Shown in pieces: positions 32,455-42,444 of a stretch of DNA of 64,000 nt. Numbering within the stretch: position 1 is the first letter of the stretch; the number at the start of each line of letters is the position of its first letter. The position numbers were made by a program, and so were the translations under genes. The stretch lies in NCBI RefSeq assembly GCF_028623165.1, contig NZ_CP117768.1:4278001-4342000 (forward strand), read 5' to 3'. This DNA comes from Nostoc sp. UHCC 0926. GTDB taxonomy: Bacteria; Cyanobacteriota; Cyanobacteriia; Cyanobacteriales; Nostocaceae. Under the pieces are notes generated by a model. It did no database searches. It worked only from the letters and a program-made list of their open reading frames with translations, and had not been told where the DNA came from.

Positions 32455-33651
32455 TTACAAAAAATTCACAATCCCCAGACGCAAGACTTCTCGCGTAAAG
32501 TCACAGGAATACCCGATAGTTGCATCAGCAAGAAACTTGCCAGCCAAACACTCTTTTGTCACCCCATAGCCCCCAAGAATTTCAACTGCTGTTTGTGCGT
32601 TTTTGATTGCAACATCCACTGCAAAAGTCTTGGCGGCTGGTGCTTTGACTGTGGCGGCAAGTTGGGGAGAAGTTTCTGCTGTACGGGCAGCATCCCATAC
32701 TACCAGTCGTGCAGCCTGGGTGTTAATCATCATATCTGCTAATTTTAAAGCCACTGCCTGATGTTCGATAATCGGACGACCCCAACTAACTCTTTGCTTG
32801 GCATAATTCAAAGCATACTCATAAGCAGCACGAGCCAAACCAACATAAGAAGCTGCCAGCCCAATAGCTACTTCTGGAACCAACATCAGTAGTTTTCCTG
32901 CTTCCCCTTCTTGTCCAATCAGATTTTGTGCAGCGACTAAGACGTTATCCAGGCAAATCTCAGCATGATGGGAGGCTTTCCAACCAATCATCTGTGTCTT
33001 TTTGCCAAACTTAATCCCAGGTGTATCTGTTGGAACATAAAAGATAGACAAACTTTCGCGCAATGGTTTATCCATCGCTGTACGGGCAATGATAAAGTAG
33101 GCATCCGCAATTCCAGCATTTGTGACTAACGAGGATTTTGTTCCATTGAGAATGTATCCATTGCCTTCACGTGCTGCAAAGGTCTTCATCCCAATATTGG
33201 GATCTGGGAGCGGGCAGAACAAATCGGAGGTGGCGACATTAGATTCACTCTCTGCGGCGCTAAATAGATGTGGTTTTTCGGATTTGACAAAAGATAGTAT
33301 TCGTTCTTGCTGTTCTTGGGTTGCAACTCTGCTGACAAACAGCGACATCGCTGCGGTGAGATTAAAGTAACTACAAGCAATGCTGACATCAACAGCGCCT
33401 ATTTCTTCTAACACTACAGCTAAGTCTATGCACTTTCTACCCATACCTCCTAGCTCTTTTGGAACCATCAAGGATGTGAATCCCAATTCAGCCCCTTTAT
33501 AGAACACCTGTTTGCAGAAATCCCAAGGTTCCATTTCTAGATTGTTAGACTCTTCAATTATTTGAACAATAGGCCCAATTTTGTTTTGAGCAAAGTCACG
33601 CGCAAGTGACTGCAACATCTGCTGTTCTTGAGTGAGGCTAAAGTCAATCAT
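32455..33651 (-). CDS. Acyl-CoA dehydrogenase family protein
   Basis: 398 residues in the usual order: N-terminal helical domain (FSLTQEQQMLQSLARDFAQN), middle beta domain (FAAREGNGYILNGTKSSLVTNAG) and C-terminal FAD-binding helical domain (QRVSWGRPIIEHQAV, ILGGYGVTKECLAGKFLADA). Most cyanobacteria lack full beta-oxidation and no partner enzyme (ETF, thiolase, hydratase) is in the window, so the true substrate may be another acyl thioester, for example in amino-acid or secondary metabolism. It is divergent from the DUF4157 gene with only 33 bases between start codons. Confidence 0.85.
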   Translation of the reverse strand: MIDFSLTQEQQMLQSLARDFAQNKIGPIVQIIEESNNLEMEPWDFCKQVFYKGAELGFTSLMVPKELGGMGRKCIDLAVVLEEIGAVDVSIACSYFNLTAAMSLFVSRVATQEQQERILSFVKSEKPHLFSAAESESNVATSDLFCPLPDPNIGMKTFAAREGNGYILNGTKSSLVTNAGIADAYFIIARTAMDKPLRESLSIFYVPTDTPGIKFGKKTQMIGWKASHHAEICLDNVLVAAQNLIGQEGEAGKLLMLVPEVAIGLAASYVGLARAAYEYALNYAKQRVSWGRPIIEHQAVALKLADMMINTQAARLVVWDAARTAETSPQLAATVKAPAAKTFAVDVAIKNAQTAVEILGGYGVTKECLAGKFLADATIGYSCDFTREVLRLGIVNFL

Positions 33652-33684
33652 TTTTATTTTTTATTTATTCTTACACAGCAGCAT

Positions 33685-34827
33685 ATGGAGGCAACCAAAC
33701 TAGAGATACAGGCGAGTATACAGCGAGAATCGTTGCCAGAAGATGATTATATGCAAATGAAGCCAGAACGCAGTATACAGCGAGAATCGTTGCCAGAAAA
33801 TGATTATATGCAAATGAAGCCAGAACGCAGTATACAGCGAGAATCGTTGCCAGAAGATGATTATATGCAAATGAAACCGATGGTGCAGCGTCGTGCGTAT
33901 GTCGGTGGCATAGGTACATCTCCTGATTTAGAAACAGGTATACAGCAGGCACGGGGGAGCGGACAACCACTAGCTAAAAGTGTTAGGCAACCAATGGAAC
34001 AGGCTTTTGGGGCTGATTTCAGTGGAGTGAAGGTTCACACTGATACTCAGGCTGATCAGTTTAATCAATCGATACAGGCAAAGGCGTTTACTACGGGGCA
34101 AGATGTGTTCTTCCGACAGGGGGCGTATGAGCTGGGGAGTCGCGGGGGGCAGGAGTTGTTGGCGCATGAGTTAACTCATGTTATGCAGCAAAAAGGGAGA
34201 TCTGTACAGCGACAAAAGCAGAATCAAGATATTCAGCTATCTACAAAAGAATTGTTGCCTATAGAGTCTGCGCCAGCAGATTGGACTATCCAATGTATGT
34301 TAACTACGGAACAAAATAACCCAGAGCAACAAAATGCACCAAGCACCCAGCTAACAGGAGCAACGCAGGTGAAATATCTTGCTAAAAATTTGATCTTACA
34401 AGGTGTTGAAGAAAAGACCGTGAAGGATTTGGTTGAAAAAATACTCGTTCAGGTTAGGACAAAGGGAGAAAAGGAGAAGATCGCCGCTAATGTAAGCGGA
34501 CATCTGTATGAATTGCTAAAATGGGAGAAGTATGTCAAGAAAAAGTATAATACTAACGAAGCAAGTAATAAAGCAGACTTAATATATATAAAAAATGGTG
34601 AGACAAGAGCTTCACAGATAAAATGGTCAACGTCTGAAAACAAGCGGAGTGCATACAAAAACATAAATAATGTGATAGAGCAGTTAACAGGAAAAAAGGG
34701 AGAGCAACCACCATCGGATGCAAGACTGATAGTAGATGTCGTCATACAAAATATATCGGTAAAAGACCGCATTAAAGAGGAAGATTTAAGAACAAAACTA
34801 GAGCATTCAAAAATAAGAATAAACTAG
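33685..34827 (+). CDS. eCIS-core (DUF4157) protein with C-terminal nuclease-like domain; candidate injected toxin
   Basis: 380 residues from the ATG at 33685. (1) Three 19-residue repeats, SIQRESLPEDDYMQMKPER, at about 12-68. (2) A DUF4157/eCIS-core domain, about 93-170, with SGVKVHTDTQADQ, and the zinc-protease-like HELTH at 161-165. This domain marks proteins carried by extracellular contractile injection systems. (3) A C-terminal domain from about 225 with GHLYELLKWEKYV, then KADLIYIKNGETRASQIKWS; E276, D298, Q311 and K313 fit a PD-(D/E)XK nuclease variant (D...QxK). The toxin role is inference. The start crowds the divergent gene, so the N-terminus may be truncated. Confidence 0.75.
   Translation: MEATKLEIQASIQRESLPEDDYMQMKPERSIQRESLPENDYMQMKPERSIQRESLPEDDYMQMKPMVQRRAYVGGIGTSPDLETGIQQARGSGQPLAKSVRQPMEQAFGADFSGVKVHTDTQADQFNQSIQAKAFTTGQDVFFRQGAYELGSRGGQELLAHELTHVMQQKGRSVQRQKQNQDIQLSTKELLPIESAPADWTIQCMLTTEQNNPEQQNAPSTQLTGATQVKYLAKNLILQGVEEKTVKDLVEKILVQVRTKGEKEKIAANVSGHLYELLKWEKYVKKKYNTNEASNKADLIYIKNGETRASQIKWSTSENKRSAYKNINNVIEQLTGKKGEQPPSDARLIVDVVIQNISVKDRIKEEDLRTKLEHSKIRIN
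33715..33885 (+). repeat. Three 57-bp tandem repeats inside the DUF4157 gene
   Basis: Units at 33715-33771, 33772-33828 and 33829-33885 begin AGTATACAGCGAGAATCGTT. Units are nearly identical (GAAGAT versus GAAAAT is one difference); the last differs at its end. Near-identity implies recent expansion or gene conversion. Confidence 0.9.
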
Positions 34828-35042: not shown

Positions 35043-35086
35043 AAATATTGCTTCTCTTTTTTTGTTCAAATATCTTTTTAATTAGA

Positions 35087-36292
35087 ATGCGCTTAACCCA
35101 CCAATACCGTCTACGCCTTACAAAGCAACAGATAACCACCTTTGAACAATGGCTAGAATTGTGTCGCCGTCAATATAACTACAGGTTGGCGGAACGGTTT
35201 AATTGGTGGGAGCAAAATCGCTGTGATGTTAACAGATGCTCTATTATTTCTTGCGGTATCGCACCACTAAAGGACAAACCTAACCGATGGTCACAACAGA
35301 AGGATTTAGCCAACACCAAAGCTTTATTCTCTAACTATAAAGACATCCCCTCCCACACACTCCAAGATGTAATCGCACGGGTTGAAAAGACGTTTGACCG
35401 TTGGTTGAAAGGAGATAGCAATGGTAAACGCTCTGGTCATCCCAGATTCAAAGGCAAAGGGCGTTATCATTCATTGACGTTTCCTGACCCTATCAAACTA
35501 GAACACCTGACGGGTAAATTTATCCAGTTACCCAAAATCGGCAAGGTGAAGATGATTTTGCACCGTCCCATTCCCGACGGATTTAAAATCAAGACTGCCA
35601 CGATTACCTATAAGGCTGACGGGTGGTACATCAGTCTTAGCCTGGAAGATGTGACAGTGCCTAGCCTTACAACTGATGTTATACCCACATCTGATAACAC
35701 CGTGGGCATTGACATGGGCTTAAAATCATTTTTGGTAACAAGTAATAACCAAGAAGTAAAGATTCCCCAACATTACCGCAAAGCCGAGAAGCGCCTGAAG
35801 CGGTTGCAGCGTCAACTTTCTCGGAAAAGGAAGGGGTCAAATCGTCGCAAGAAAGCGATTAAACGTGTTGCTAAATCTCATCTAAAAGTTGCCAATCAGC
35901 GCAAAGATTTCCACTATAAAACTGCATTATGGTTGCTAAATCAATCTCAGGTAATTGCATATGAAAACTTAAATATTAAAGGACTGGCAAAATCTATGCT
36001 TGCCAAGTCCGTAAACGATGCCGGATGGGGTCAATTTCTGCAAATTCTAAACACCAAGGCTGCAAGTGCTGGGTGTTTGGTAGTAGCGGTTAATCCACGA
36101 GGCACAAGCCAAGAGTGTTCTGACTGTGGAGCGACAGTTCCAAAAACACTGGCCGACAGATGGCACAACTGCCAGTGTGGCGCTAGTTATTGCCGTGACC
36201 ACAATGCAGCACGCAATATAAAACATAGGGCGGCGGGGCATCCCGTCCTTAAAGCTAGGGAAATGTCCGACGGGATACCGGGAGTCACCTAG
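35087..36292 (+). CDS. tnpB: TnpB RNA-guided nuclease (orphan IS200/IS605-type OrfB), copy 2
   Basis: 401 residues from the ATG at 35087 (MRLTHQYRLRLTKQQITTFE). The triad is intact: D in TVGIDMGLKSF, E in VIAYENLNIKGL, D in CRDHNAARNI, with zinc finger CSDCGA...CQCG. It is only distantly similar to copy 1, so the two derive from different elements. No TnpA. It lies directly behind the DUF4157 gene and its small partner with barely 45 bases upstream, less than a normal left end, so the element boundary may run inside the small gene. Confidence 0.9.
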   Translation: MRLTHQYRLRLTKQQITTFEQWLELCRRQYNYRLAERFNWWEQNRCDVNRCSIISCGIAPLKDKPNRWSQQKDLANTKALFSNYKDIPSHTLQDVIARVEKTFDRWLKGDSNGKRSGHPRFKGKGRYHSLTFPDPIKLEHLTGKFIQLPKIGKVKMILHRPIPDGFKIKTATITYKADGWYISLSLEDVTVPSLTTDVIPTSDNTVGIDMGLKSFLVTSNNQEVKIPQHYRKAEKRLKRLQRQLSRKRKGSNRRKKAIKRVAKSHLKVANQRKDFHYKTALWLLNQSQVIAYENLNIKGLAKSMLAKSVNDAGWGQFLQILNTKAASAGCLVVAVNPRGTSQECSDCGATVPKTLADRWHNCQCGASYCRDHNAARNIKHRAAGHPVLKAREMSDGIPGVT

Positions 36293-36335: not shown

Positions 36336-36569
36336 TTCCAATTTTAGGTAGAGTTTTGGCGGGTAGGGTCGCCCGATGGCTGCAAGAACCAGACATTTAA
36401 TACTACTCACAACTTCACTGAGGCGGTGGCGGCGCCATACTCCAACACGGAATCATCGGTATATGGACGGACATGAGATAACTTGTCATGCATCGTCACA
36501 CACAGATATTTTGACCCAGCTTTCAAGGGATAATTCTTGTTATACAGCAGCCTACACGGAGAAATTAAT
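36336..36569. other. Region between tnpB copy 2 and the CRP-AAA-polyferredoxin gene
   Basis: About 230 bp, no gene recognised. A short G/C-rich stretch around 36420 (GGCGGTGGCGGCGCC) stands out. Contains the leader of the next gene with a weak GGAGAAATTAAT site. Confidence 0.35.
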
Positions 36570-39095
36570 ATGACATCTCCAGAAACGGTTACATGGCTAC
36601 AAGAACGGACGACTTTAGGAATTCTCTCGCCTGAAGTGTTAAATGCGATCGCTCAAGTAATTGAAGAACAAGTAGTGAGTGCCGAAACTGACCTAGTTAG
36701 CGAAGGCACTCCTTCAGAAGCCCTTTATATTCTTGTAGAAGGTCAACTCGAAAGCAATAGCACCAATGAAACCAACCCAGCCTTAGCTTGTGGATTCCTC
36801 CCTGGTGCAGTGATTGAACTCAAAGAATTGCTGTTGGATGAATTAACTCCATTCACAATCACTACGGTAACAGAATGTCACTTGTGGGTTGTGCCTGCTG
36901 CTAAATTTCGGGAATTAGCCACCCAATACCCCGAAATTGCTCAGGCTTTTTCCCGCCAATTGGCTCAAGAATTAGCTCAGGTGACATCTGCACTTGGCTA
37001 TGAACAAGAACGATCAGTAGCTTTGCGACCATATTTAGTCACCAAAGCACAACGCGGAATTATCGGTACAAGTCGCTATGCTGTGCGGCTACGGGAGCAA
37101 ATTCGAGAAGCAGCTGCTGACCGCAAATCAGTGGATATTTTTGGCGAACCAGGGTTAGAAAAAGACAATATAGCAGCCCTAATCCACTTTGGTTCTCCAA
37201 AACGGCGACAACCAATTATTAAAGTAAATTGTGGTATTCTCCAAACGAGTGGTGCAGATTTATTCGGTCGCGCAGGCGGTAAACCAGGACTGTTGGAATG
37301 GTTGGGAGAAGGGACTTTAGTTCTCAACAACATCCAAGAATTGCCCGAAGAATTATTACCTCCCGTGACGCAGTTGCTCAAAACTGGCACATATACCCCC
37401 GTGGCTCGTTCGGGAGAAGCAGCACCTGAGCCTCGCCCCAGTACAGCCAGAATTCTGATTGTTTCAGAAAAAACTCAGCCGACAATTGAACGTTCTGTTG
37501 GTCACATTATTAAAGTACCACCGCTCCGGGTGCGGAAAACCGATATTCAGGCACAGGTTGAATATTATACTAGTCTCTACATTCGGGCTAGAGGCGTTCC
37601 GAAACCGCATATTACCCCAGAAGCTTTGCGTCGCCTCCAGTCCTATGATTTTCCTGGGAACCTCAAGGAATTGAAAAATCTGGTAGAAAGAGCGATCGTG
37701 CAAGCGGAGGGTGCCAATGAATTAACAGAAGAAATTTTCTGGCCAGCCGAAACTAAGAAAAAACGATTTCGGGTGAATCTTTTAAATGCCTATCCCCGTT
37801 TGCGGCGGTTTTTACGTAGTCCCTGGTGGCCCGATCGGGTTAACTATGGTTTTACAGCAACGGCTTTTGCGATTATTGTTGCAGTGTTATTTATTGGGCC
37901 TCAAACCCGCGATCGCAATTTCGTATTAAATTTCTTTTGGGCTTGGTGGTGGCCTTTCTTCTTATTTCTCTTTCCCTTTTTGGGACGTATCTGGTGTTCT
38001 GTTTGTCCCTTCATGATTTACGGGGAAATTACCCAAAAGTTATCTTTATGGCTGTGGCCTCGAAAACTCAAGCGCTGGCCGAGAGAAGAAGCTGAGAAAT
38101 GGGGCGGATGGTTTATGTTTGGTTTGTTCTCCCTAATTTTCTTATGGGAAGAACTCTGGCATTTAGAAAATACCGCCTATCTTAGCGCTTGTTTGCTGCT
38201 GTTAATTACCGCTGGGGCAATGATTTTCTCTGCTCTTTTTGAGCGGCGGTTTTGGTGTCGGTATCTCTGTCCCATCGGCGGGATGAATGGTTTATTTGCC
38301 AAACTTTCAATGACGGAACTCCGGGCACAGCAAGGTATTTGTTCTGCCAGTTGTACCACGTATCAGTGCTATAAAGGTGGGCCGCAAAAGGGCGAAGGGA
38401 TGGAAACTAATGGATGTCCTTTATACTCGCACCCAGCGCAGTTAGAAGATAACAGAGATTGCGTACTGTGTATGACTTGCCTGAAAGCCTGTCCCCATCG
38501 TTCCGTTGAGTTCAACTTGCGTCCCCCTGGAATTGAACTGTGGACAACTCATGTACCCCGCACCTATGAAGTAGCATTATTGTTTTTGTTGTTGGGTGGG
38601 ATATATCTGCATCGCTTGCCAGAATTGCAATCTTGGTTGGGGTTACAACTGGATTTAACTCAGTTTTGGCAGCACTTCGGATTATCGCTCTTAGTGTTAA
38701 TTATCCCAGCAATTTTTACCTTTGCAGCTTATGGGTTGCTGCAAGTGTTCAACTTTAACCGTAAGCCTCGATCATTTGTAGAACTTGCCTATGGCTATCT
38801 ACCATTAGTTTTGGGGGGAAACTTGGCTCACTATCTGCGTTTGGGTTTAGGCGAAGGCGGGCGGATTTTACCCGTTACTTTTGCTACTCTTGGTCTGAGC
38901 GGTGAACAATTACCAATATTGGTTGCTCACCCGGCTGTGATTGCCTTTTTGCAAGGAGCAACGATAATTTTCTCAGTGTTGATGACTATGTTATTAACGC
39001 AAAAGATTGCCAAGCAACCAGTGCGATCGCTCCTTTGGCAACACTTAGCAGCGATCGCTTTGGGAGTTAGTATGTGGGCGATTATCGTGTTTTGA
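36570..39095 (+). CDS. Fusion: cyclic-nucleotide-binding-like + degenerate NtrC-type AAA+ + NapH/NosR-like membrane polyferredoxin
   Basis: 841 residues from the ATG at 36570. (1) About 15-150: CRP-like sensor domain (TDLVSEGTPSEALYILVEGQ). (2) About 170-390: NtrC-class AAA+ fold, but the Walker A reads GEPGLEKD, Walker B is LVLNNI (DE replaced by NN), and the sigma54-contact GAFTGA loop is missing, so ATPase and sigma54 activation are unlikely; cyanobacteria lack sigma54 anyway. (3) From about 420: several membrane spans with cysteine motifs WCSVCP, WCRYLCP and ferredoxin-like CVLCMTCLKACPHR, as in NapH/NosR/CcoG-type electron carriers. Likely a membrane-bound redox or electron-transfer protein with a regulatory head. 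Confidence 0.8.
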   Translation: MTSPETVTWLQERTTLGILSPEVLNAIAQVIEEQVVSAETDLVSEGTPSEALYILVEGQLESNSTNETNPALACGFLPGAVIELKELLLDELTPFTITTVTECHLWVVPAAKFRELATQYPEIAQAFSRQLAQELAQVTSALGYEQERSVALRPYLVTKAQRGIIGTSRYAVRLREQIREAAADRKSVDIFGEPGLEKDNIAALIHFGSPKRRQPIIKVNCGILQTSGADLFGRAGGKPGLLEWLGEGTLVLNNIQELPEELLPPVTQLLKTGTYTPVARSGEAAPEPRPSTARILIVSEKTQPTIERSVGHIIKVPPLRVRKTDIQAQVEYYTSLYIRARGVPKPHITPEALRRLQSYDFPGNLKELKNLVERAIVQAEGANELTEEIFWPAETKKKRFRVNLLNAYPRLRRFLRSPWWPDRVNYGFTATAFAIIVAVLFIGPQTRDRNFVLNFFWAWWWPFFLFLFPFLGRIWCSVCPFMIYGEITQKLSLWLWPRKLKRWPREEAEKWGGWFMFGLFSLIFLWEELWHLENTAYLSACLLLLITAGAMIFSALFERRFWCRYLCPIGGMNGLFAKLSMTELRAQQGICSASCTTYQCYKGGPQKGEGMETNGCPLYSHPAQLEDNRDCVLCMTCLKACPHRSVEFNLRPPGIELWTTHVPRTYEVALLFLLLGGIYLHRLPELQSWLGLQLDLTQFWQHFGLSLLVLIIPAIFTFAAYGLLQVFNFNRKPRSFVELAYGYLPLVLGGNLAHYLRLGLGEGGRILPVTFATLGLSGEQLPILVAHPAVIAFLQGATIIFSVLMTMLLTQKIAKQPVRSLLWQHLAAIALGVSMWAIIVF

Positions 39096-39507: not shown

Positions 39508-39846
39508 ATGCAAGTTCTAAAAAGATCCATCAAACCACAAACTTATATATCGTTCCTCCACATCTACCAAACGACTTGGGGGACTGCTGGTGATATTTGT
39601 TTAATCCGTGAATCTGTAGCTAATGAAAGTACAGCGAAGTTTGTCGGTCACAAAATCGAATTAGTAGTGCCAAAAGCGTTGGAGCGCGATCGCATCGCCA
39701 ACTGTGCGATCATCAAAGTTGCAGGTAATGTCGGCGACGGACATCCGAAAGAGCATCCCTTGGAATGGGAGGCTTATGAAGGTGTAAATTCAGAAATAGC
39801 TGAAGCGGCTCTCAAACCTTGGGGCTTCAAGTTAATTGAGCTTTAA
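39508..39846 (+). CDS. Small conserved-looking protein of unknown function
   Basis: 112 residues from an ATG at 39508 with AAGGATTACAGATA upstream. No signal peptide or membrane span. The sequence (FVGHKIELVVPKALERDRIA, then EHPLEWEAYEGVNSEIAEAA) looks like a compact mixed alpha/beta domain. Contains a GCGATCGC inside. I do not recognise the family. Good codon-like structure and upstream hairpins support a real gene. Its neighbours, a polyferredoxin fusion and a convergent toxin-antitoxin pair, do not suggest a role. Confidence 0.55.
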   Translation: MQVLKRSIKPQTYISFLHIYQTTWGTAGDICLIRESVANESTAKFVGHKIELVVPKALERDRIANCAIIKVAGNVGDGHPKEHPLEWEAYEGVNSEIAEAALKPWGFKLIEL

Positions 39847-40036: not shown

Positions 40037-40471
40037 CTAAAAAAACCGTTCTAATTCTTCTACTAGCGCCTGACTGTCTTTCCATAGGGCAATACTTGCA
40101 TCACGATAGATTTTCGCAATGAATGGAGCAGGATGTTTCCGAACAAATTCTTGCATCGGCACAATTGCTTTGAGAAAAATTGCGGCCATATCTGCCCCTG
40201 ATACACTTTGGGAAGCAAATATAAACATCTTGACCTGAGCGCGCGCAACAGCAATCCTTTCTAATAAGTTGTTGCTAATCTTGCCATCTTTGGTCAAAAC
40301 AACCCAGCCCATTTTGCCGATCTCTGGCAACCAGTCTACATCTTGAGCGCCTTTGTCAAAGTGTTCGTCATGGATTTTTATAGTGACACCTGCGGACCGA
40401 AGCGTTTCTACAATGCGTCTGTTACCTAGACATCTATCTATAAAAAAAGTAATGGACTGGGGTTGAATCAT
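40037..40471 (-). CDS. PIN-like toxin (VapC45/DUF5615-like)
   Basis: 144 residues. PIN-like acidic residues are visible: D in TFFIDRCLGNRRIV (about 12), D42-D48 region (IHDEHFDKGAQDVDW) and the WVVLTKDGKI block, typical of DUF5615/VapC45-like ribonuclease-fold proteins. These act as toxins cutting RNA, held by their antitoxin. The start overlaps the stop of the upstream DUF433 gene by 4 bases (ATGA), so translation is coupled. The pair matches the VapB45-VapC45 layout of Mycobacterium. Confidence 0.75.
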   Translation of the reverse strand: MIQPQSITFFIDRCLGNRRIVETLRSAGVTIKIHDEHFDKGAQDVDWLPEIGKMGWVVLTKDGKISNNLLERIAVARAQVKMFIFASQSVSGADMAAIFLKAIVPMQEFVRKHPAPFIAKIYRDASIALWKDSQALVEELERFF

Positions 40472-41169
40472 GCAGCAGCAGGTAGTTCACACCGGATAGC
40501 TTCTTCGATCTTGAAGCGATCGCTGTCATAATCATAAGCGAGATCGTCAATTGAATCACCTGCTTTATAGCGTTCTGCTAACACGCTGGTGGTAATTCCT
40601 GTTCCAGCAATAACAAGGCGACCAAAGGCGATTCGGGAATCAATGACAACAACACGAGGGCTATCTTCCTCGTGAGAGCGAGTAAAGGGATACAGTTTAA
40701 TTGCAAGCCCAGTGTCGTCGGGTTCAATTCGCTCAAGATGAGCATTAAAAGCGTCTTTCATCTGCGTTTGTACGCTTTTCGATGCATTAATGAGAGAGCC
40801 ATAGCGCTCAATGAACAGGTCAACACCATCGGTAAGAAAACTTTCACCAGCAAGCGGGTGGGATGTTTGAAACCGCTCATCAATGAAATCAAGAGCGGTT
40901 CGGACATTGCCTAGATCAATTTTGTGATTTTTGCGAATTGCTCTTAAAACATGAACTTCAACTAGGTTGTTAAATGAGAGGAGTCGTGGTTTAAAATCAC
41001 GAATTGGGATAAGGGGTTTGAAGAAGTTGGAACCTTTTGAAATCCGGTAGTGTCGCCCAACTGTCCAAGAACGAATTGTGCCTGCTGGAATGCGTAAATA
41101 ACGAGCGGCATCGCTAATGGAGTAGGCGGGAATGTCTCTAGGATCGGTTCCTCCGTAAAGCTCGGTCAT
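40468..41169 (-). CDS. Antitoxin with helix-turn-helix and DUF433 domains (VapB45-like)
   Basis: 233 residues. N-terminal MerR-like helix-turn-helix (about 13-35, AYSISDAARYLRIPAGTIRSW), a middle linker, and a C-terminal DUF433 domain (about 170-230, RLVIAGTGITTSVLAERYKA then DSIDDLAYDYD). In VapBC45 this domain pair forms the antitoxin and DNA-binding regulator. A 22-bp perfect palindrome at 41299-41320 lies 130 bases upstream and could be its operator. It precedes and overlaps the PIN gene. Confidence 0.78.
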   Translation of the reverse strand: MTELYGGTDPRDIPAYSISDAARYLRIPAGTIRSWTVGRHYRISKGSNFFKPLIPIRDFKPRLLSFNNLVEVHVLRAIRKNHKIDLGNVRTALDFIDERFQTSHPLAGESFLTDGVDLFIERYGSLINASKSVQTQMKDAFNAHLERIEPDDTGLAIKLYPFTRSHEEDSPRVVVIDSRIAFGRLVIAGTGITTSVLAERYKAGDSIDDLAYDYDSDRFKIEEAIRCELPAAA

Positions 41170-41780: not shown

Positions 41781-42260
41781 TTAACCACGACCCCAGTCGC
41801 GCTCGTGCTGATAGCGGTTGTTATTATCACGATTGTTGCGAATGTTATTATAGCGCTCATAGCGACGGTTATTTTCGCGCTCATAGCGACGATTATTTTC
41901 GCGCTCATAGCGGCGGTTATTTTCGCGCTCATGGCGACGATTATTTTCGCGCTCATAGCGTCGGTTATTTTCGCGGTCATGGCGGCGATAATTTTCGCGC
42001 TCATAGCGACGGTTATTATCGCGCTCATAGCGATCATTATTGTCACGAATGTTGAGAAGATCGTTCTCTCGGTCATAATCATCATTTCTGTGGTGACGAC
42101 TCTGACGTTCGTAGTAACCATCATCGTTGTGTTGATAGCCGTAGGTATCTAACCCAGCAAGATAATCTACTCGTGTATTAGCATCAGCTTTTGGAGAAAT
42201 ACCCAAAGCCGATGCAGATGCTATCAAGCCTGCAAGCAAAATAGAGGTAAAGCGGTTCAT
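41781..42260 (-). CDS. Secreted low-complexity protein with Arg/Tyr/Glu/Asn repeats
   Basis: 159 residues from the ATG complementary to 42258-42260 (MNRFTSILLAGLIASASALG), a classic signal peptide with likely cleavage after the ALGISPKADA region. The mature part is highly repetitive: octapeptide-like units RYERENNR repeated about ten times, with RHDRENYR and RHERENNR variants, ending RDWGRG. Units correspond to 24-bp DNA repeats. Very basic/acidic mixed and Tyr-rich, so likely disordered and periplasmic or extracellular. Function unknown. The opposite strand gives only a hydrophobic shadow frame. Confidence 0.65.
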   Translation of the reverse strand: MNRFTSILLAGLIASASALGISPKADANTRVDYLAGLDTYGYQHNDDGYYERQSRHHRNDDYDRENDLLNIRDNNDRYERDNNRRYERENYRRHDRENNRRYERENNRRHERENNRRYERENNRRYERENNRRYERYNNIRNNRDNNNRYQHERDWGRG

Positions 42261-42444
42261 GATGTCAGTCAAAAATTGTTGATAGTAATTTATGCAAGTC
42301 CAGTCTGTTTAGGAAGAGGAGATTCCACAAGTGTCTGAATCAATCCTATCAATCTTGAATAACTCAAAAAGTTTTCTTGGGTGCGGTGATTGAGAAAGGT
42401 TTTGTTGTCTGTGATACTTTCTGACTTTCCAGATGCAGTGAAAA

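Follow-up and report, generated by a model that had tools for sequence, protein, structure and literature searches.

VpsR and FleQ act on transcription as sigma-70-type regulators, and the phosphate cassette of cyclic-nucleotide-binding domains has the pattern GE-[LI]-A...R-[TA]-A. A membrane module shared by NapH, NosR and RdhC has also been described (PMC5928378, in its accessible part). We analyzed a gene of Nostoc sp. UHCC 0926 that joins a CRP-like head, an NtrC-type AAA+ domain and a membrane protein of predicted iron-sulfur type in one chain (36570..39095, plus strand, of a 64,000-nucleotide stretch of contig NZ_CP117768.1, here called the window; all features of the gene given below are on this strand). 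The reading that we favor, with a confidence slightly better than even, is that the product is a cytosol-facing, NapH/NosR-like membrane electron relay that is gated or assembled by a hydrolysis-dead AAA+ domain, and not a transcription factor.

The open reading frame (ORF) is intact and encodes a single chain of 841 aa plus stop, as the triple fusion proposed in an initial annotation requires, and the homologs share its Pfam set. The Pfam matches, all above cut-off, are cNMP_binding (residues 35-119), Sigma54_activat (164-281), AAA_lid_14 (320-387) and Fer4_5 (two stretches). The frame is open already from a TTG codon at 36537, which would give 852 aa; the ATG at 36570 appears to be the better-fitting start because 841 aa is the commonest length in close homologs and GGAG lies 8 bases upstream. 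A whole-protein search of the 8.3-Mb genome (E up to 0.001) found no second copy. Six further sites in this genome (L002-L007) match PF00158 only, and weakly (E 1.9e-7 to 3e-4); most lie in open frames of 679-890 aa, and they are unrelated to the window gene at E up to 0.001.

Homologs of the window protein number 2255 among 7997 scored candidates. All of the best 120 listed homologs carry the four Pfam models, some with an extra AAA model, and the matches named among these rows are cyanobacterial except for three labels of metagenome-assembled genomes (Chloroflexaceae, P0242; Obscuribacterales, P0172; Actinomycetota, P0341). The family is matched in 261 of 388 genomes of the class (E up to 1e-100, including the sister group described below) and in 104 of 386 genomes of the phylum (E up to 1e-30), two samples that are unlike in make-up; some matches in the phylum sample are partial or split (e.g. 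G116, G133, G205, G255, G282 and G340). A plasmid collection holds 13 matching records. In 79 of 80 named loci (the top-scoring 80 of 547, by title almost all from Nostocales) the gene is a single open frame of 820 aa or more; the remaining locus has one of 761 aa. These single frames and the agreeing genome surveys rule out an assembly artefact, and relatives in which the parts are separate genes, which would have undone the proposed fusion, were not what these loci contained. Three homologs of 1115-1121 aa (P0081, P0110 and P0112) have two AAA+ domains in tandem, the first with GEAGVGKV and LVLDHL, and G398, G404 and G412 have open frames of 1134-1137 aa that may belong to the same kind. The combination is common in databases, often under a name that makes it a sigma-54 regulator; the names include "sigma 54-interacting transcriptional regulator", "cyclic nucleotide-binding domain-containing protein", "nitrogen assimilation regulatory protein" and the more neutral "4Fe-4S binding protein". 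We recognized no description of this protein in a literature search whose scope excluded most subscription journals.

In a tree of the membrane part (76 aligned rows, quick method, unrooted), two groups are split from the rest, which we call group A and which includes the window protein. Group B, the sister group (23 rows), consists of proteins of about 900 aa that are ~40% identical to the window protein, while group C (5 rows, family f25) has proteins of about 700 aa. The placement of groups B and C is unsure because their long branches meet, as a program warning indicated.

The membrane module (residues 400-660, 37767..38549) is the best-conserved part of the protein, with a mean identity of 0.595 to 22 group B rows. 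Structure models, a charge count and a NapH-like match below cut-off point to four membrane helices with cytosolic cysteine loops, and the models place about five more helices in the C-terminal membrane region (residues 661-841, 38550..39092). Twelve cysteines are conserved without exception in all 76 rows. These form two membrane-edge motifs, C476-x2-C479-P (37995..38009) and C563-x3-C567-P (38256..38273), an unconventional set of four (C591, C595, C600 and C616; 38340..38417), which lies in a stretch modelled at pLDDT under 50 (residues 589-625), and a classical 4Fe-4S motif, C631-x2-C634-x2-C637-x3-C641-P (38460..38492). The motifs named in the initial annotation (WCSVCP, WCRYLCP and CVLCMTCLKACPHR) are present letter for letter; the first is CX2CP and not CX3CP, and the unconventional set had been overlooked. 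With helix borders placed by hand from the structure model, Lys and Arg number 6 and 12 in the cysteine-bearing loops and 5 in the stretch before helix 1, whereas the loops preceding helices 2, 4 and 6 have 2, 0 and 1. Based on this concentration of charge, the cysteine loops should face the cytosol.

The nearest curated NCBIfam family is NapH/MauN (TIGR02163, E 5.5e-14, 52.3 bits). A free-standing distant relative of the module in Deinococcus ficus has 452 aa and 29.5% identity over 93% of the module, and neither it nor its overlapping upstream gene has an AAA+ or CRP match. Such free-standing relatives raise the question of whether the module might be a CcoG-like metal-reductase or cofactor-assembly protein instead of a respiratory relay: the Deinococcus relative stands beside a His-rich hypothetical protein and one in Sulfurovum beside TonB-dependent receptors. 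No CcoG model is among the NCBIfam matches of the window protein at E up to 1, an outcome that says little either way. Against a CcoG-like function, the neighbors of group B are genes of sulfur and low-oxygen metabolism, and ACR3-like genes are found at 3 of 29 loci. We consider a CcoG-like function improbable.

The NtrC-type AAA+ fold is present with its lid at residues 160-392 (37047..37745), and its motifs are degenerate. The Walker A motif GEPGLEKD (residues 192-199, 37143..37166) and the Walker B motif LVLNNI (residues 250-255, 37317..37334) are found exactly as first annotated; in the latter, the Asp and the catalytic Glu are replaced by Asn-Asn. The segment at the place of the GAFTGA loop (residues 229-247, 37254..37310) is shortened, with an 8-residue gap opposite the GAFTGA of PspF, and the sensor-II-like sequence PGNLKEL (residues 362-368, 37653..37673) has Lys where activators have Arg. 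The losses in Walker B and GAFTGA are family-wide: the catalytic Glu (N254 in the window protein) is present in 0 of the 317 readable rows of 361 homologs and GAFTGA in 0 of 361, so that homologs with both intact, which as a majority would have overturned the annotation, did not appear. The alteration of Walker A is milder than had been suggested. Its Lys198 is kept in 302 of 304 rows; among 121 close homologs, 105 have Glu at the usual Gly place and 10 read GEPGLGKD, and the group B motif is G-x-G-K-[ST] in 117 of 120. Judged by these residues, the domain is without the known determinants of ATP hydrolysis and sigma-54 contact. A dN/dS of about 0.09 shows that purifying selection acts on it, which argues that it has been repurposed and is not decaying.

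A domain of this kind could still belong to a sigma-70-type transcription regulator like VpsR or FleQ that has lost GAFTGA. VpsR is the best AAA+ sequence match among solved structures, with LNDI at the aligned Walker B place and GAFTGA likewise missing from the alignment. Against this, Pfam (E up to 1) finds no helix-turn-helix (HTH) or other output domain in the window protein, the chain runs on into about nine membrane helices and the head is optional; in the structure model, the whole chain is occupied by the head, the AAA+ domain and the membrane helices. We regard such a regulator as extremely improbable. Sigma-54 itself appears to be missing from the host, as had been assumed for cyanobacteria generally and is borne out here for the window's genome alone: PF00309 and PF04552 have 0 matches in it, while each was found in 4 of 14 control genomes.

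The same residues bear on whether the AAA+ domain is a pure scaffold, which would hold the cytosolic part of the relay together, bind no nucleotide and transmit nothing. In 105 of the 121 close homologs the Walker A Gly is replaced by Glu, most of the main group has lost the Walker B Asp and the sensor-II residue varies (K, R, T, A, G, S and others), all of which suits a scaffold. A mere spacer, however, need keep neither the near-invariant Lys198 nor the group B G-x-G-K-[ST] motif. A pure scaffold is in our view unlikely, though it deserves serious consideration.

The CRP-like head (residues 1-121, 36570..36932) has a fold that matches cyclic-nucleotide domains (PF00027, 42.9 bits), and is followed by a linker (36933..37046) that is modelled as a long helix at residues 122-155, leads to the AAA+ domain and has a median dN/dS of 0.052. 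The canonical phosphate-binding cassette is absent: GE[LIMV][AGS] occurs in 1 of 53 head-bearing rows and R[TASN][AV] in 16, and the window protein has neither. On this sequence basis, the head probably binds no cyclic nucleotide and is probably no cAMP sensor. The head is absent from 24 of the 76 aligned rows, some of which are contig fragments, with at least 8 changes on the tree. Headless full open frames exist too, for example L055, L057, L073 and 7 aligned group C loci. The head is an optional, accessory part of the family.

The initial annotation took the AAA+ domain for a structural or nucleotide-sensing module, either of which it may be, and let the signal path end in a regulator head: membrane electron flow would alter the AAA+ domain and head, which would then signal to a partner. 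Such a redox sensor would account for degenerate ligand-binding modules that are linked by a strongly conserved long helix, and it has a precedent in that the module relatives NosR/NirI and CprC were first called regulators (PMC5928378, in its accessible part). It fits poorly with a head that lacks the cassette and is missing in part of the family, with a Pfam search that returns no output domain and with a group A that has no widely conserved partner gene. We consider the redox sensor rather unlikely. The head and AAA+ domain are more likely to be inputs that control electron flow than its readout, because the membrane module with its 12 cysteines is kept throughout and the AAA+ domain stands in front of it. 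The invariant part is the membrane path, the variable or inactive parts lie in front and no output domain was found; taken most simply, the head and AAA+ domain are inputs or assembly parts, and the output is the electron path.

In the gated relay that we favor, the membrane module, which is similar to the quinone-linked one of NapH, NosR and RdhC, would carry electrons to or from the three cytosolic-side cysteine sets, which very likely hold iron-sulfur clusters. On the membrane side the exchange would probably be with the quinone pool, and on the cytosolic side the electrons would go on to, or come from, a soluble partner. The AAA+ domain may be a cytosolic assembly or gating module that sets how active the relay is; its subunits may form oligomers, and they may bind nucleotide but not hydrolyse it, like a Walker B trap mutant. 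The head would be an accessory input that is missing in some lineages. Group B, which is often linked to cysK, would do the same relay job in sulfide or low-oxygen physiology, and the window's group may have a general redox-balancing job.

Five observations weigh against this mechanism. First, the 76-row tree shows at least 11 changes at the Walker A Gly place, which is Glu in the window protein, and nucleotide binding may therefore not matter. Second, the NapH/MauN match, at 52.3 bits, is far below the cut-off of 213 bits. Third, no solved structure convincingly matched the membrane model. Fourth, the cysteine loop is modelled at pLDDT under 50. Fifth, no widely conserved neighbor or operon was found for group A.

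Neighboring genes were called with a crude longest-ORF script, and their names rest on one tested example each; 29 group B, 103 group A (23 + 80) and 8 group C loci were surveyed. The window gene is a stand-alone gene. In the 80 named loci, the commonest neighbors are a 112-aa gene without a Pfam match (25, with its relatives downstream on the same strand), an either-strand gene (25) and a gene that is transaldolase-like by eye (24). Forty more diverse loci had no neighbor family in more than 7, apart from the cysK of group B, and none of the 8 group C loci had an informative neighbor. The scan for the architecture and its surroundings that had been suggested initially yields a widespread family (261 of 388 genomes) and no widely conserved partner in the window's group.

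In group B, cysK lies in the flank of 21 of 29 loci, and in 20 it follows the family gene on the same strand, either directly or no more than about 1.1 kb downstream. These 20 loci carry 11 family codes, some of them near relatives, and several group B loci are closely related (e.g. L194, L195 and L197). By comparison, cysK is in the flank of 4 of 103 loci in group A (2/23 + 2/80) and 0 of 8 in group C. One group B cysK product tested is cysteine synthase A above cut-off. Other neighbors in the 29 loci are genes for sulfide-quinone reductase (SQR, 6), TauE (5), psbA (5), a persulfide-dioxygenase-like protein (4), ArsR (4), cydA (4), cydB (4), heme oxygenase (4), hemN (3) and an ACR3-like protein (3); in the 103 group A loci all of these are at 0 except psbA (2) and ArsR (8), and ArsR is found at 1 of 8 group C loci. 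Seven of these (SQR, TauE, persulfide dioxygenase, psbA, cydA, heme oxygenase and hemN) count as sulfide or low-oxygen genes, and one or more of them is near 18 of 29 group B loci against 2 of 103 in group A. At least one of the three sulfur genes alone is near 10 of 29 group B loci, and none of the seven is near 11 of 29.

The identity of the one SQR neighbor tested is settled by its solved-structure match to sulfide-quinone reductase (E 5e-93, residues 38-457), despite an NCBIfam score of 97 against a cut-off of 525 bits. The persulfide-dioxygenase-like neighbor matches the ETHE1 and BpPRF structures (E 2e-63 and 9e-67) and is below the NCBIfam cut-offs, the ACR3-like neighbor is below cut-off (78.5 vs 282.8), and the ArsR neighbor passes as a general metalloregulator only, with BigR below cut-off. 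Across the 388 genomes, SQR is found in 36 of 42 with a group B gene versus 70 of 346 without (Fisher p 5e-17, ignoring kinship), and the two genes are within 20 kb of each other in 17 of the 36 genomes that have both. For genomes with group A or C and no group B, the association is weak (54/219 vs 16/127; Fisher p 0.008, ignoring kinship). At one group B locus (L041, 10951-19000), a run of CCG/Fer4_8 (HdrB/C-like), flavoprotein and DUF4405 genes lies just upstream of the family gene. At another (L044, 13136-15148), a NifH-like gene, with a PII-like gene two on (both named by reading their starts), lies near the group B gene and a DUF2214 gene.

Two plasmids carry a family gene together with a cysteine synthase gene, which follows 17 bases behind on Aulosira laxa plasmid2 and 5 bases behind on Pseudanabaena galeata pPg_03. 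On both, psbA and a Rieske gene are close by, and rhodanese and DsrE genes are also present on pPg_03. As in group B, these plasmid proteins have the Walker A motif AGTGKT and EN or NN in Walker B; the 76-row tree was built without them. Among far relatives of the module, one in Chlorohelix, whose match covers 28% of the query, is clustered with genes for TusA, rhodanese, DsrE, TauE and ArsR. Those in Deinococcus, Sulfurovum and haloarchaea have no common setting of this kind, and TauE/SafE adjoins the Sulfurovum one.

In Synechococcus PCC 7002, pdo, rhod, tauE and cysK2 are reported to go up under polysulfide treatment (PMC12466478, in its accessible part), and these are the same kinds of genes as the neighbors of group B. 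The support for a sulfur role of group B consists of gene position and co-occurrence. For the window's group such a role is guessed from kinship, and is weakened by the absence of sulfur neighbors and the weak SQR co-occurrence.

If the protein is a regulated electron relay, then the database names that refer to sigma-54 regulators mislead, and a hydrolysis-dead AAA+ domain has come to control a membrane redox protein. The handling of sulfide and of its electrons by cyanobacteria is an open question in anoxygenic photosynthesis, and the link of group B to cysK and partly to sulfide genes, also on two plasmids, offers a direct handle for testing it. A much bolder and very doubtful proposal is that the family is a new kind of AAA-gated electron conduit, with the cysK-linked group an unrecognized part of mobile sulfide and anoxygenic-photosynthesis islands, perhaps a second, SQR-independent entry or exit for sulfur electrons, and the window's group its everyday oxic counterpart. 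Sites of that kind have been postulated in physiology papers without a gene, as the "USO" of Leptolyngbya hensonii (PMC5776472, in its accessible part) and as a non-inducible second sulfide donation site of Geitlerinema (PMC5061849, in its accessible part).

In the window, an IS605-type TnpB/OrfB gene (35048-36292, plus strand) lies directly upstream of the window gene, and the next gene after it is the 112-aa gene without a Pfam match (39508-39846, plus strand). Further out are a 399-aa eCIS_core (PF13699) protein in which a SIQRESLPE(D/N)DYMQMKPER stretch is repeated close to the N-terminus (33628-34827, plus strand), a PIN_10 gene adjoining a DUF433/HTH_66 gene, possibly a toxin-antitoxin-like pair (40037-41169, minus strand), and a 163-aa protein with a long run of RRYERENNRRHEREN-like repeats and no Pfam match at E up to 0.001 (41781-42272, minus strand).

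Several known systems share parts with the window protein. Genes similar to the sqr-arsR-psbA groups of cyanobacteria such as Geitlerinema PCC 9228 (PMC5061849, in its accessible part) lie near part of the group B loci, whereas the window gene is outside any such group; the accessible main text of that paper never mentions "cysteine synthase", "4Fe-4S" or "sigma-54". CRP/FNR proteins and cyclic-nucleotide-binding domains have the PF00027 fold in common with the window head, which differs in having no GE-[LI]-A...R-[TA]-A cassette and no HTH that we could find. The NtrC-class enhancer-binding proteins (PspF, NtrC1, NifA and VpsR) share the NtrC-type AAA+ fold, but the window protein lacks the catalytic Glu, GAFTGA and a detectable HTH, is fused to a membrane part and belongs to a host without sigma-54. 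NapH/MauN ferredoxin proteins and the NosR/RdhC module likewise have two membrane-edge Cys-Pro motifs followed by 4Fe-4S ligands, which in the window protein are assigned by sequence only. In contrast to the two CX3CP motifs of NapH/MauN, it has one CX2CP and one CX3CP, and in contrast to NapH, NosR and RdhC it has extra C-terminal helices, an AAA+ domain and CRP head in front and, by Pfam at E up to 1, no FMN-binding domain of the kind that marks NosR and RdhC. The separate modules are already known, as are membrane iron-sulfur relays, and what would be new in the window protein is its unusual controller.
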